Source: Tetraselmis striata
Lineage: Eukaryota; Chlorophyta; Chlorodendrophyceae; Chlorodendrales; Chlorodendraceae
Reading direction: 5' to 3'
NCBI GenBank assembly: GCA_006384855.1
Contig: VCJN01001450.1
Location: 40,700 to 104,699 of the forward strand
DNA: 64,000 nucleotides
Of this stretch, positions 27,687 through 38,658 are shown one piece after another. Numbering within the stretch: position 1 is the first letter of the stretch; every line of letters starts with the position of its first letter. Below the pieces are notes generated by a model. The model did not search any database, had not been told where the DNA came from, and worked only from the letters and a program-made list of their open reading frames with translations. The position numbers were made by a program, and so were the translations under genes.

Positions 27687-28447
27687 GAGCCTCTATGTAA
27701 CGCTTTTCGGTGTCTCCCTTTACGGTGTCGGCAAGAACGAGTATTTTTTTTAAACGAGTTAGGAAGTGGCTTTCTACCACGAGTAGCGACTAGACCTGGC
27801 GGCTCGGATCGATTTGCCTCCATTGAGCGACCCCGCCGCTGCTGCTCGAGCTGTAGTGTAGAGCTGGATGGCGCGCGCCGCGGCACTCTTATTACTGTAA
27901 TTCAGTGCGACTGTGCTGGTGCTGGTACGAGTACTCGCCTTAGGGTTTGTCCTCGTCGTAGTACGCGGGGTCACGTGTAGGATGCGTTTAAAAGTACGGG
28001 TATGTCCAGCACGATTTGGTAGGGATTCATGTATGATGCCATGCATGATACGAGGTCGTGCCAGCTCACCGATTTATAGATAATAGATTTACATTTTTGG
28101 CCGAAGTATTGTTGGATTCGGGTGCGGTATTTGTACCAAGGGGGTATTTATTTGACTGTAAGGATTTTATCCTGATATCTGGAGGACTGGAGACAGTCGC
28201 TACTAGTGGTGCACGCCTGCTGTCTGATGACCGATTGACTGCTGGGCGGGGCGATGATGACGTCGTCGTTCGCCTGGCGACGTCAGCCTGCTTGCCCGCT
28301 GGGAACCCGACAGCTCAAGCAGGATTATTTCATCGTCATCGTGCAATCACAGCGCAATAGACTCCACGCAACGCCCCTCCCACCTGATCGGCATCTGTCC
28401 GCGGAAGAAAGCTGGACTGCCTAAGCAATCTCAGAGAGGTTGACACG
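27687..28447. other. Intergenic spacer
   Basis: No gene or transposon end was recognised between the divergently arranged genes. Promoters for both probably lie here, but no specific element could be identified. Confidence 0.45.
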
Positions 28448-32619: not shown

Positions 32620-35600
32620 TCAGGACCAGATGTCACGCACGTAGCGGCGCTGCTTGGTCATCTCCGCCAGCTTGGCGGTGGATTCCTGCGCCGAGAGGCC
32701 GCCGTGCTCCACCAGGATGTCCACCAGGCACTGGTTCACGTCCTTGGCCATGTGCGCCCCGTCGCCGCAGATCATCACGTAGCCCCCCTGGTCCAGGATG
32801 GCCGCACTCAGCTGGGCGCCGACCCCCTTCATACGGTGCTGCACATACACCTTGTCCGCGCCCTCGCGACTGAATGCCGTCACCAGGTGCGTCAGGTGCC
32901 CGGAGGCGGCGAAGCCCTCCAGTTCATTGCGGTACAGGAAGTCCTCCTCGCGGTTCCGGCAGCCGAAGAACAGCCACGACGGCCCCAGCGCCGCGCCCGC
33001 TCGTGCCTTGGCGGCGCGCTCCTGCAGAAAGCCGCGAAAGGGCGCCACACCGGTGCCCGGGCCAATCATGATGAGGGGCGCGCTCAGGTCACTGGGCGGG
33101 CGGAAGCTCTCGTTGGACCTCAGGAACACAGCGAGCTTGGGGCTCGTGGCGCCCGAGCACACTCGCTTGATGTAGTTGGTGGCCACGCCGGCGTGGTCGC
33201 CGTAGCGCTCCGTGCGGTACTTGACGACAGAGAAGGCCACGTGCGCGGCGTCAGGGTGCTGCAGCGGGGAGGAGGTCAGCGAGTACAGGCGGGTGGCCAG
33301 CGGGGTGAGCGCCTCCAGCAGGTGCGCCACCGGCGGCTTGCACGACGGAAACTGCTCCAGCAGGTCCACCAGGGAGGGCTGGCCGGCAACCATCTCAGCC
33401 CTGTAAGCCTCCTTGCCACCCCTGACATGACATCCGTGCGAGCAAGCATACGCATCAGCAAACTTGAAGCAACAGCAAGCCGCAACACCGGGTAGCATCC
33501 ACAAGGGCGATTGCGCGGTAGTCCATTCTGAGAACTGGCTTTACAGTAACGTAAATTAATCACCCCGCCGCTGACTTTGCAGAAAGTAGTCAATTTGGTA
33601 TGAAGGCGGGACGATTCAGCGCCCTTGTGCAGCCGGCGTCCGTTGAACGTAAACTTCTGTCAATATGTGTAGCAATTGGTGTGTTCCTTGGTCCCTACAT
33701 ATTCAAGCTCGCGGACGCTGAGGCTCGCGCTGTGCTCTGTAAGATGATCGTGAGTTGGATTCCAGCAAGTAAGCTGAATCATTGAGATAGAGTTAGCTTG
33801 AGACACTTGCGCTACCCCCTGATCTTGTACAAATTCCGACGGTCCACCAAATGGAATAAGCTCATACGTGACTATGAAGTCCCTAATCACGACTGCTGGT
33901 ACCCACGGACACAGATACAGTCTGGCCAGGTAATCATATCATACCTCGAGGAAAGGTACAGGAGGCGGTTCTTTTCCGCAGCGTCGCTGCAGTACTCTGC
34001 CAGCATGCGCAGCAGGGACTTCTTGGGCACCCCGGTGATGTCACAGCCAGCGGCAAACGCGTGGCGGAGGGTGCAAGGCCAGCCCAGGTGGCTGAGCTTG
34101 CCGGGCTCGCCGTCCGCGCCGGCGACAGAGAACACCTGGGAGCCGTCCGCCGCCAGCAGCGCCAGCAGCTTGTCCACCAGGGTGGGGTCATTCTCAGCTT
34201 TGATGCCGATGGCGTCGCCTGGGTGGCACGCCATCCCGCTACCGGAGAGGTCAATCTCCAGGTGGAGCACCTGAGGGAGCCACCACAGCGTCAGTGCGGT
34301 CGACATACAAACAGACGGAAGGCACACGCGCTCATTTTTCAACCGGTGTTGTCAAGCACTCTCACGGCACTCTCATGGGATGCCCTGGCTGCTCGAGCAT
34401 CAGAGACTGGGGTTGGGAACAGCTGAGGCGGCGATACGGCATGATGCGGGAAGACCTCTACTGCAACGGGCCATTAAGGTTGAAAAGGGGGGGGGGGGGG
34501 GATAAGAGCGCACCTCCCGTTCGCTGCTCTCAGAGCACATATTGTGGCACTTGACCACTGGCGCCCAAAACGGCGCGTCCGGCGCGTAGATGCCCTCAGG
34601 GTCGCGGTGCGCCAGCTCCTCGCTCGTGGGGTGGCTGCGCTCTGCCTGCTGCACCACGGCGGCAGCAGTGGCGTCCTCCATGGAGTCCAGCGTGACAGTG
34701 CACTTGGACAGCGCAGGGACGCCGACCAGTTCCTCGGCAGGCTGCTGGGCCGCAGCAGGCGGAGGAGGCGCCTCCTTGGTGCCCCCAGCCTCCTCACTGC
34801 ACGCTGCCTTCAGCACCGGCTTGAGCTTCTCGCACCACGCATCCACCGCCTCCTCAATCCCGTCCACCTCATCCACATCCACCGTCGGGTAGAAGCACTC
34901 CGCGCCCAAGTCGTTGAAGCGCTTGCAGAAGGTCTTTGGCACGGCGCAGAAGCGGGTGTAGTTGGAGTCGCCCAGGCCCAGGCAGGTGTACTTGATGCCC
35001 TTCAGCATCCCGGCAGGGTTGGTCTTCCGCCTGCAGGGATCCGCACAGGGGCAGGGAAGGAGCTGGATGAGCATGGCAGCAGTGCGACAAAGGCCCGTCA
35101 GGGGGAGGGCTGGCATGCAGGCGGAGCAGGCAGACGGGCTGGCGGAGGGTGTACTTGAGGGTGACTAGGAACTTGGCAGCGTTGTCTGGCGGGTCGCCAT
35201 CCCCGGTGGAGGAGGCGACAATCACCACGACGGGCGCCTTCTCGGGGGTCAGGTTCTCAAAGCCAAACTCGTTGAAGCTGACCGCCTGCACACAACACTC
35301 CCAGTGAGATACTGGCATGGGAGTAGCGCCTGGCGGCTGTAAGCCCGGACAATGGGCGGCCAGGGTGCTGCCTCACCTTTGCGTTCAGCCCCTCCGCAGC
35401 GGCCTCGGCTGCAATGCCTTTGGCAATCTCATGCGCAGTGCCGGTCTGTGAAGCGTAGAGCACCATCACTGCCTTGCTCTTGGGCTGGGGCTTGGCGCGC
35501 TCCGCCTGAGGGTGGGCGCAGGCAGATAAGGGGTGAGCACCCCACCAATTCGCGCCATCTCACGCCAAGAGAATGCATGCCAGAACAGAGGAGCATGTCG

Positions 35601-37130
35601 TCATAGCCAGCCGCCCAGACTCACCTGCATCTTGGCCATCAGGGCGGCGCTGCCAGTCAGCATCGAGGTAGGCGCGGCAGCAGCTGCTGCAGCAAGCGAC
35701 GGAGCTCCTCCAGCAGCCGGAGCAGGCGGAGGAGGCGCCTCCTTGGTGCCCCCAGCCTCCTCACTGCACGCTGCCTTCAGCACCGGCTTGAGCTTCTCGC
35801 ACCACGCATCCACCACCTCCTCAATCCCGTCCACCTCATCCACATCCACCGTTGGGAAGAAGCACTCCGCGCCCAGGTCGTTGAAGCGCTTGCAGAAGGC
35901 CTTTGGCACGGCGCAGAAGCGGGTGTAGTTGGAGTCGCCCAGGCCCAGGCAGGTGTACTTGATGCCCTTCAGCATCCCGGCAGGGTTGGTCTTCCGCCTG
36001 CAGGGATCCGCACAGGGGCAGGTAAGGCGCTGGGTGAGCACGGCAGCAGTGCGACAAAGGCCCGTCAGGGGGAGGGCTGGCATGCAGGCGGAGCAGGCAG
36101 ACGGGCTGGCGCAGGGTGTACTTGAGGGTGACTAGGAACTTGGCAGCGTTGTCTGGCGGGTCGCCATCCCCGGTGGAGGAGGCGACAATCACCACGACGG
36201 GTGCCTTCTCGAGGGTCAGGTTCTCAAAGCCAAACTCGTTGAAGCCGACCGCCTGCACACAGCCCTTCAATCAGACCTTGCCATGGCGGCAGCGCTCGGT
36301 GGTAGACCAGGGTGCCGAGGGGCTGAACGCAAAGGTGAGGGGCTGCCTCACCTTTGCGTTCAGCCCCTCCGCAGCGGCCTCGGCTGCAATGCCTTTGGCA
36401 ATCTCATGCGCAGTGCCGGTCTGTGAAGCGTAGAGCACCATCACGGCCTTGCTCTTGGGCTGGGGCTGGGAGCGCTCCGCCTGAGGGTGGGCGCAGGCAG
36501 GGAAGGGGTGAGCACACTTCCAGAGTGCACAGGCTGGAGCAAAGGAACGCATGCAGGCCAGGACGTGGCAACGCGGCTGCAAGCTCACCCGCATCTTTGC
36601 CAGAAGGGCGGCACTGCCAGTGAGCGCCCCGGCGGGGGTGGCGGCAGCGGCGGCAGACGATGCCGCCGGAGGCACGGCCATCTTGTTGTTAGCCTGCTCC
36701 TTCACAAGCCCAGGCGCGGCCTTCTCCGGCGCAGCTGCGCAACATCAGAAACAACAAACGGCAGGGAGGGGAGGGGGGGTTGAAAGGAGGAAAACGGCGC
36801 GGAAGGAGAGGGAGAGGGGGGTGGTGCGTGATGCGCCGCGGAAGGGGCGCCATCTGTGCTGCGTTCCGGATCAGGGGGGATGGCCGCCGAACCTGCTGGT
36901 GACAGCGTTGGCGCCGCAGCCTCCGCCTCTGCCACCTGCTGCTTGGCTGTCTCAGAATAAACGTTCTGAGAGAAGAAGGTGAGGTAAGCTACGCCGATGC
37001 ACACCACGGGCACCGCCAGCAGCGCGATCGGCAGCAGCGTGGGGAGCAGCAGGAGGCCGGCCGCGCCGAGCGCCAGCGTGCTCCATTCAATGCGCGTTGC
37101 TGAACCCGCCATCAGGCCCGCTTGCCCCAT
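32620..37130 (-). CDS. Membrane-anchored NADPH diflavin reductase with two FMN domains, MTRR-like
   Basis: Electron-transfer flavoprotein: NADPH to FAD to FMN to an acceptor. Ten minus-strand exons: 37130-36893, 36734-36589, 36480-36352, 36252-36122, 35997-35625, 35505-35377, 35285-35155, 35030-34514, 34270-33945, 33400-32620. Every phase matches; the sum is 2,901 bp (966 residues). Order: N-terminal transmembrane segment (ALGAAGLLLLPTLLPIALLA), flavodoxin 1 (YASQTGTAHEIA, SSTGDGDPPDNAAKF, LGLGDSNYTRFC), linker, flavodoxin 2 with the same motifs, Ala/Pro hinge, FAD domain (CHPGDAIGI, RLYSLTSSPL), NADPH domain (GPGTGVAPFRGFLQER, LFFGCRNREEDFLYRNEL), ending RYVRDIWS. The GDGDPPDN motif and DIWS end favour methionine synthase reductase over cytochrome P450 reductase (usually GDGEPTDN), although the anchor is P450-reductase-like. 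The first donor (GTTCGG) is weak. Confidence 0.85.
34756..35533 (-). repeat. Downstream copy of the FMN-domain exon block
   Basis: This is the second copy of the ~970-bp duplicated block, holding exons 6-8 (5' part) of the reductase. All flavodoxin motifs are intact and both splice ends are kept. Confidence 0.92.
35723..36510 (-). repeat. Upstream copy of the FMN-domain exon block
   Basis: This block (exons 3-5 of the reductase with their introns) is nearly identical to 34756-35533, with an offset of 967 to 975 bp caused by small indels. The block begins in a short LTGSAALLAKM-type linker and ends inside the Pro/Ala hinge, so the fusion stays in frame. Coding differences from the other copy are few (VGF/VSF, LEK/PEK, KAF/KTF, CFFP/CFYP, EEVV/EEAV). 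Confidence 0.92.
36317..36369. repeat. Perfect 24-bp hairpin spanning a splice donor of the reductase gene
   Basis: The left arm 36317-36340 and right arm 36346-36369 are exact inverse complements with a 5-nt loop. The right arm contains the end of reductase exon 3 and its GTGAGG donor (at 36351-36346 on the minus strand). The left arm is an inverted extra copy lying in the intron. The downstream duplicate (35341-35376) lacks it. Confidence 0.95.
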
Positions 37131-37551
37131 TCGACGGCTTTCACCGGCGTATGAGAGCCGTCACGCCAGAGGAATGTTGGGAGCTCTGCAGCGACTGTCT
37201 GAGCCTCCGCAGTGCTAGCGCACGGTTCTGACACACTGAGCTAAACTGGGCCGCCAGCGCATGGATGATACAGCGAGTCGTATACCCTGTACTGGTTTGA
37301 ATTACAAAAGCGTAAGGAACAAGAGCCTACCGCGTAGTACAACGTCACGACGGGCAACACTGGTATACAGGGTAGTTTTATTATTTTTGGTTACAGGGAG
37401 AGCGTCAAGAGAATGCACGGAAAGTACTGAGGAAAGAAAAAGCCCATACATTTAAGCAGAACCCTATACAGGGTAGTCGTTTCGCAGATGGCGGCGCGCA
37501 CGCGAGCGAATTACAGTCTGACAGTAGTTCAGGTACGGGTACGAGTCTCTG
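37131..37551. other. 5' flank of the reductase gene with dispersed repeat
   Basis: The part next to 37130 should hold the reductase promoter and 5' UTR; no element was identified. Bases 37376-37434 are a copy of the repeat also at 19247-19310. Confidence 0.5.
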
Positions 37552-37766
37552 TGTGAGGGGATGCACTTATGGTGGCAAGAGTCTTTGCTACTCCGAGGTT
37601 GTGAGGGTGAAAGTATTCTGATTACAGTTCCGGCAGGGCGCCGTGCTGATATATCAGCAGGCGCCGGGCGGCCGACAGGGCGCAGGCGCAGTGTTGCGCG
37701 CGCTACGCGCCTTAATGTGTGCTACTGTTGATTAGGGTTAGTGAGGGTATAGGATATATCCTCACA
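37552..37766 (-). repeat. LTR (3' LTR of the minus-strand element)
   Basis: 215 bp, TG...CA ends, nearly identical to 38444-38658. Just inside it is the polypurine tract on the sense strand (agagcggggtggaa). Confidence 0.92.
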
Positions 37767-38366: not shown

Positions 38367-38441
38367 ACATCTATAGCTCAGTGGTAGAGCACTCGTTTGG
38401 TAAGCGAGAGGTCCGGCGATCGAGACGCCGTAGAAGCACCA
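38367..38441 (+). tRNA. tRNA-Thr(GGT)-like sequence with encoded CCA, derived from a retroelement primer
   Basis: The fold is complete. Acceptor 38367-38373 pairs with 38431-38437 except at positions 1 and 3. The D arm starts AGCTCAGTGGTAGAGC, the anticodon arm has five pairs and loop TTGGTAA (anticodon GGT), and the T arm has five GC-rich pairs with loop ATCGAGA. Discriminator A is followed by CCA at 38439-38441. Eukaryotic tRNA genes do not encode CCA. With the LTR two bases away, this is a copy of the primer tRNA, not a normal gene. The B box is degenerate. Confidence 0.8.
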
Positions 38442-38443
38442 AA

Positions 38444-38658
38444 TGTGAGGGGATGCACTTATGGTGGTAAGAGTCTTTGCTACTCCGAGGTTGTGAGGGT
38501 GAAAGTATTCTGATTACAGTTCCGGCAGGGCGCCGTGTTGATATATCAGCAAGCGCCGGGCGGCCGACAGGGCGCAGGCGCAGTGTTGCGCGCGCTACGC
38601 GCCTTAATGTGTGCTACTGTTGATTAGGGTTAGTGAGGGTATAGGATATATCCTCACA
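38444..38658 (-). repeat. LTR (5' LTR of the minus-strand element)
   Basis: 215 bp, nearly identical to 37552-37766. It is separated from the CCA of the tRNA copy by two bases. Confidence 0.92.

Follow-up and report, generated by a model that had tools for sequence, protein, structure and literature searches.

The window analysed here, a 64,000-nt stretch of the Tetraselmis striata contig VCJN01001450.1 in whose numbering all gene positions are given, carries on its minus strand a gene (32620..37130) for a diflavin reductase with a hydrophobic N terminus and two complete flavin mononucleotide (FMN) domains. Ten exons, read from 37130 to 32620 and separated by GT-AG introns, give an open spliced frame of 973 codons followed by a stop. 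Within this gene, a 967-bp direct repeat doubles a block of three exons that amounts to one complete FMN domain. According to a 2012 review (PMC3509625), the standard layout of diflavin reductases has a single FMN domain, and the departure from that layout claimed in a preliminary description of this DNA holds.

The start codon and the hydrophobic N-terminal segment lie in exon 1 (36893..37130), where the best 19-residue Kyte-Doolittle mean is 2.57 at residue 27. This segment may serve to anchor the protein in a membrane or, alternatively, as a targeting peptide. Exon 2 (36589..36734) encodes a hinge with the motif TGSAALLAKM. The first FMN domain (FMN1, residues 129-292) begins in exon 3 (36352..36480), continues in exon 4 (36122..36252) and ends near position 35766 in exon 5 (35625..35997), which also holds a second hinge with the motif TGSAALMAKM and the duplication junction. 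The second domain (FMN2, residues 340-503) is likewise divided among exon 6 (35377..35505), exon 7 (35155..35285) and exon 8 (34514..35030); it ends near position 34799 and is followed in exon 8 by a linker and the start of the flavin adenine dinucleotide (FAD) unit. Exon 9 (33945..34270) encodes more of the FAD unit, and exon 10 (32620..33421) encodes FAD and NADPH units and the C terminus RYVRDIWS. The spliced frame defines these exons, with domain mapping placing the FMN parts in exons 3 to 8, and Pfam matches on a database protein placing the FAD and NADPH units in exons 8 to 10.

That database protein, P0001 (832 residues; 8 member sequences, 1 contig), matches the window protein at 99% and spans both FMN domains in a single reading frame. 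It aligns without indels to residues 142-973 and supports the junctions of introns 3-9, including the corrected boundary at which exons 4 and 7 both end in CTCAA before GTACAC. Exons 1-2 and introns 1-2 are supported by the sequence itself and by conservation in a second contig. Pfam finds on P0001, in this order, two stretches of PF00258 (Flavodoxin_1), one PF00667 (FAD_binding_1) and one PF00175 (NAD_binding_1), together with a weak overlapping Flavodoxin_5. This is the domain order of a diflavin reductase with more than the single FMN domain. The anchor-FMN-FMN-FAD-NADPH order proposed in the preliminary description is borne out by the spliced frame and Pfam, with the hydrophobic N-terminal segment as the putative anchor. 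Its further statement that motifs, splice sites and frame are all intact is correct for the FMN loops, the GT-AG introns and the open frame, but its total of 967 codons must be amended to 973.

The repeat unit consists of copy B on the FMN2 side (34749..35715) and copy A on the FMN1 side (35716..36682, outer limit approximate). These limits derive from the direct repeats D1 (300 nt, 98%, spacing 967) and D2 (184 nt, 95%, spacing 975) and from the alignment of the two copies, which are 92.9% identical over 804 columns. At the protein level the two domains differ at only 7 of 164 residues (132, 133, 174, 185, 248, 262 and 276 in the numbering of the first copy), all outside the FMN loops, and the loops SQTGTA, SSTGDGDPPDN and LGLGDSNYT are present in both. 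The doubling of a three-exon block, claimed previously, is confirmed by D1, D2, the spliced frame and the same structure on the second contig. The two copies meet within exon 5, where Ala/Pro-coding sequence separates an exon-8-like part from an exon-2-like part, in agreement with the low-complexity hinge by which the preliminary description explained the in-frame fusion.

A TGG/TGS-A-A-hydrophobic-AK/AR motif precedes both FMN domains, at residues 118 and 329, and is also present in P0121, P0122 and P0017. By the pattern used, it occurs in 31 of the 104 proteins whose first FMN domain is preceded by over 40 residues; some proteins also carry it with no FMN domain after it, and in the structure model of P0001 it is mostly helical.

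The genome searched (224 Mb, 2903 contigs) contains a contig, C2762, that is collinear with the window, about 96% identical over the gene, and presumably the other haplotype. The tandem arrangement is repeated there, and its 973-aa frame is likewise intact, differing from the window protein at 14 residues; over residues 142-973, the window, C2762 and P0001 proteins disagree at 11 positions. An assembly artefact, in which a haplotig or a mis-join doubled the block, deserves consideration in a genome assembly that leaves near-identical contigs separate and appears to include at least one bacterial contig. In addition, exons 4/7 and introns 4/7 are as alike or more alike within a contig than between contigs, although this is as expected from gene conversion. 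However, over the whole repeat unit each copy is closest to its counterpart on the other contig (98.4% and 96.0% versus 95.8% and 92.5%), and the introns are strongly diverged between copies. In addition, C2762 has the same structure and P0001 runs through both domains, and together these four observations make an artefact very unlikely.

Of the three intron pairs that correspond between the copies in the window, two are strongly diverged, with differences at 33 of 105 aligned sites for introns 2/5 and at 35 of 90 for introns 3/6, and are alignable only under force. In contrast, introns 4/7 differ at only 5 of 124 sites (Fisher p about 9e-12), and the exon parts differ by 2.1-2.3%. A recent duplication is rejected on these grounds. 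On C2762, introns 3/6 differ at 16 of 99 sites; this lower difference arises because intron 6 there is chimeric, its first part matching intron 3 and its end matching intron 6 of the window (35286..35376), and we read it as a gene-conversion tract. Since diverged introns lie beside near-identical exons, and since intron 6 is chimeric on C2762, the observations point to an old duplication that was homogenised in patches by gene conversion. Between the contigs, the ratio of nonsynonymous to synonymous changes (pN/pS) is 0.16 (FMN1), 0.23 (FMN2) and 0.33 (FAD/NADPH part), where each pN/pS value in this study rests on 2-7 changes. Within these very small counts, relaxed selection on one copy is unsupported.

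The doubling is real and is more general than first thought. There are 12 proteins with two or more FMN domains, P0001 included, among the 120 relatives listed from a first protein search (231 matches above threshold). Two further searches used long multi-FMN queries, which favour long proteins, and raised the count to 18 of 134 relatives, of which 14 have two FMN domains, three have three (P0115 and proteins of Chlamydomonas incerta and C. schloesseri) and one has four (P0131). The same architecture, for which a homologue search had been proposed, is therefore found in database relatives with two to four FMN domains, and the doubled FMN domain is not unique to this gene but, to judge from these sequences, is part of a wider pattern. 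Astrephomene and Dunaliella tertiolecta each have two FMN domains and a Volvox africanus model has one. The closest named relative among the matches listed is from Prasinocladus malaysianus (65%). The Astrephomene and Chlamydomonas proteins are encoded on contigs of more than 1 Mb, whereas P0131 and P0132 carry transcript-assembler names; in P0039 and P0097 the first FMN domain is only partly present. Searches aimed at such proteins, in a library with few subscription journals, yielded no description of a diflavin reductase with tandem FMN domains among the matches listed (titles and abstract starts; 30 of 209 in one search), and the 'two FMN domains' mentioned in PMC9510131 are those of a dimer.

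The multi-FMN proteins of C. incerta, C. schloesseri, Astrephomene and D. tertiolecta, which are of a kind like methionine synthase reductase (MTRR), share with the window protein the tandem FMN domains with intact motifs placed before one FAD/NADPH unit. Those of Chlamydomonas and Dunaliella also share the TGG/TGS-A-A hinge motif before the FMN domains, a pattern that was not found in the Astrephomene protein. Differences lie in copy number and in the hinges, and the copies cluster within each lineage. Domain trees (IQ-TREE on 136 rows, FastTree on 159 rows and IQ-TREE on 35 rows), in which many deep nodes are weakly supported, pair the tandem copies of Astrephomene, P0129, P0039, P0115 and P0111 within their own protein. 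The Chlamydomonas copies group within the two species, and those of D. tertiolecta group with a D. salina protein. Some results depart from simple pairing: the copies of the window, C2762 and P0001 interleave, the first domains of P0073-like proteins stand apart from their second domains, domain 4 of P0131 groups with domain 2 of P0132, and the two P0060 domains are apart in the 136-row tree but together in the 159-row tree. An approximately unbiased (AU) test on 35 rows chosen by hand from the 159, in which the seven first domains were constrained to form one group, rejects a single duplication before all lineages without later homogenisation (p about 1e-37). The trees are thus compatible with repeated duplication, with an older duplication followed by repeated homogenisation, or with both, which the AU test cannot separate.

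Judged by sequence similarity, the FMN domain is of the MTRR type and not of the P450-reductase (CPR) type, because the sponge proteins P0118 and P0119, MTRR-like by source name, match FMN2 at about 108-111 bits, versus 79 bits with NADPH-dependent diflavin oxidoreductase 1 (NDOR1, the best match among solved structures), 64 with CysJ and 64 with CPR, where no MTRR FMN domain is among the 60 PDB matches listed for FMN2. A CPR identity is accordingly disfavoured, for the FMN domain alone. Pieces of a separate CPR, with Arabidopsis ATR2 as best match, are located on contig C2838; a 222-aa piece scores 212 bits with ATR2 and 119 with human MTRR. The FAD/NADPH part of the window protein may be of either type. 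With MTRR (also MSR) the algal protein shares the FMN domain type, the FAD and NADPH units and the presence of MetH in its genome. It is unlike MTRR in having a hydrophobic N terminus, two FMN domains and an FMN-FAD stretch shorter than the MTRR linker described in PMC3509625. MTRR is soluble, which the algal protein may or may not be. With CPR/ATR proteins it shares the N-terminal hydrophobic segment and, for FMN2 plus the FAD/NADPH part, the best solved sequence and fold matches; the low score of its FMN domain, the doubling and the separate ATR2-like pieces set it apart. NDOR1 (NR1) resembles it through the match to isolated FMN2, but that match is below those of the sponge MTRR-like domains, and NDOR1 is listed as cytoplasmic in the same review (PMC3509625).

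Leaving aside P450 and molybdopterin fusions, 65 of the 90 database relatives in which 60 or more residues precede the first FMN domain have a hydrophobic N-terminal segment, whereas the review assigns such an N-terminal anchor to P450 reductase alone (PMC3509625). Contigs C2214 and C1930 (L013, L014) hold an uninterrupted 993-aa frame in which the reductase domains follow what by eye is a P450 part, as in CYP102 fusions.

There are two MetH matches in the genome. One, identified by PF02965, lies in a 9.9-kb stretch of contig C1302 (GC content 0.563) with one TAG inside the matched stretch. It has a 2-kb internal tandem repeat (L025 456-2472 and 2556-4573, 97.5% identical) over the homocysteine and pterin modules, and the frame shifts in the second copy. 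The other is on C695 (L026; GC content 0.649), which has bacterial-type genes by eye and is probably contamination in the assembly, so that this MetH probably comes from a bacterial contaminant.

An AlphaFold2 model of P0001 (49 aligned proteins) has a mean predicted local distance difference test score (pLDDT) of 90 and a predicted template modelling score of 0.72. Both FMN domains are mostly at about 90 pLDDT or more. Residues 158-188 between them fall below 50, and the FMN1-FMN2 linker is probably flexible in the modelled protein. FMN2 and the FAD unit superpose on closed P450 reductase.

The reading we favour, at a probability of roughly 45%, makes FMN1 a second tethered electron shuttle on an MTRR-type reductase in which both FMN copies work. 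What the sequences show directly is the architecture in two contigs and in P0001, the intact loops, the patchy homogenisation and the multi-FMN relatives. One protein would combine a hydrophobic anchor at its N terminus, two copies of an MTRR-type FMN domain and a single FAD/NADPH unit. Electrons would pass from NADPH to FAD and on to the FMN domain that happens to be docked there. As the model suggests, FMN2 may normally be docked there in the closed position known from P450 reductase, and FMN1 might either alternate with it at the FAD site or take electrons from it. A second shuttle would therefore allow more electrons to be held and reduced FMN to be on offer more of the time. The likeliest acceptor would be the B12-dependent methionine synthase MetH. 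The second module presumably arose by recombination in Ala/Pro-coding repeats, after which gene conversion would have preserved its similarity to the first. We infer that both domains are loaded with flavin, and likewise the electron route, the acceptor, the anchoring and the benefit; the electron buffer suggested in the preliminary description is conjectural too.

Several observations weigh against this shuttle. Six relatives (P0073, P0078, P0097, P0100, P0108 and P0130) have an FMN1 without the FMN-loop motifs, and five of them, those in which the stretch is present, have GGEA instead of SQTG in the phosphate loop; flavin binding is therefore not a given for an extra domain. Between FMN2 and the FAD unit, the P0001 model has about 34 residues free of secondary structure, 16 of them below pLDDT 50, compared with the roughly 80-residue linker given for MTRR in PMC3509625, and the long linker of MTRR is therefore lacking. 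Whole P0001 matches P450 reductases best among solved structures (343 bits; human MTRR reaches 248, with its deposited chain aligning in the FAD/NADPH part only), and the last exon (266 aa) likewise gives up to 214 bits with P450 reductases versus 189 with human MTRR. Between the copies pN/pS is higher, at 0.55 and 0.31, and therefore mild relaxation is possible. The listed structure-search matches do not cover FMN1, although the model does not show that FMN1 is unable to dock. Moreover, the contig of P0001 may be either RNA or an intron-aware gene model, and the case is built on sequence and structure model.

The alternatives are not mutually exclusive, and neither the shuttle nor the passenger reading that follows excludes splicing. 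The second domain might be a tolerated passenger: hinge repeats would cause frequent unequal recombination, module number would drift, conversion would keep the copies alike, and one FMN would do the work. This is a real possibility, although we would give it less than even odds. The FMN number indeed ranges from 1 in the Volvox africanus model through 2 in Astrephomene and 3 in two Chlamydomonas species to 4 in P0131, intron 6 is chimeric, and an internal tandem repeat of 2 kb is found in this genome's MetH gene as well. Against a passenger speak the FMN loops kept in both copies and the between-contig pN/pS ratios of the two domains, small as the counts are.

The six relatives whose FMN1 lacks a GDGDPPD-type motif, five of them with GGEA in place of SQTG, nevertheless retain the domain and are the basis for a docking or spacing role, in which FMN1 transfers no electrons and, for example, holds the catalytic part off the membrane or binds MetH. 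For the window gene this is unlikely, given that FMN1 has intact loops and hardly differs from FMN2. Alternative splicing could also yield one-FMN and two-FMN forms, since exon lengths and intron phases are such that skipping exons 3-5 or 5-7 drops 633 nt and keeps the frame. The modules are nevertheless in one chain in P0001 and in the C. incerta, C. schloesseri, Astrephomene and D. tertiolecta proteins, which leaves splicing distinctly unlikely. A broader version of the shuttle is that algal MTRR-type reductases repeatedly evolved membrane-anchored arrays of two to four FMN domains, selected for electron storage or multi-arm delivery to a B12 enzyme or another acceptor, with conversion keeping the array working. 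We advance this only tentatively and consider it somewhat unlikely.

Models of diflavin reductases assume a single FAD and a single FMN, with the rate governed by how these dock and separate. Such models could be tested directly by comparing flavin stoichiometry, electron capacity and turnover across natural proteins that have two, three or four FMN domains per FAD unit. The three-FMN proteins of C. incerta and C. schloesseri, which are close to Chlamydomonas reinhardtii, bring the question near a genetic model, and C. reinhardtii itself is absent among the matches listed in the three protein searches.

The sequence around the gene also varies between the contigs. Just upstream, at about 37463-37477, the other contig is about 5 kb longer (L009 6943-9901, L011 1-2023), and the flanks of the extra sequence overlap by 15 bp in the manner of a target-site duplication. 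At 28204-28208 the other contig is longer by about 480 bases. Finally, a 215-bp direct repeat (37552-37766 and 38444-38658) flanks a tRNA-Thr gene at 38367-38441.

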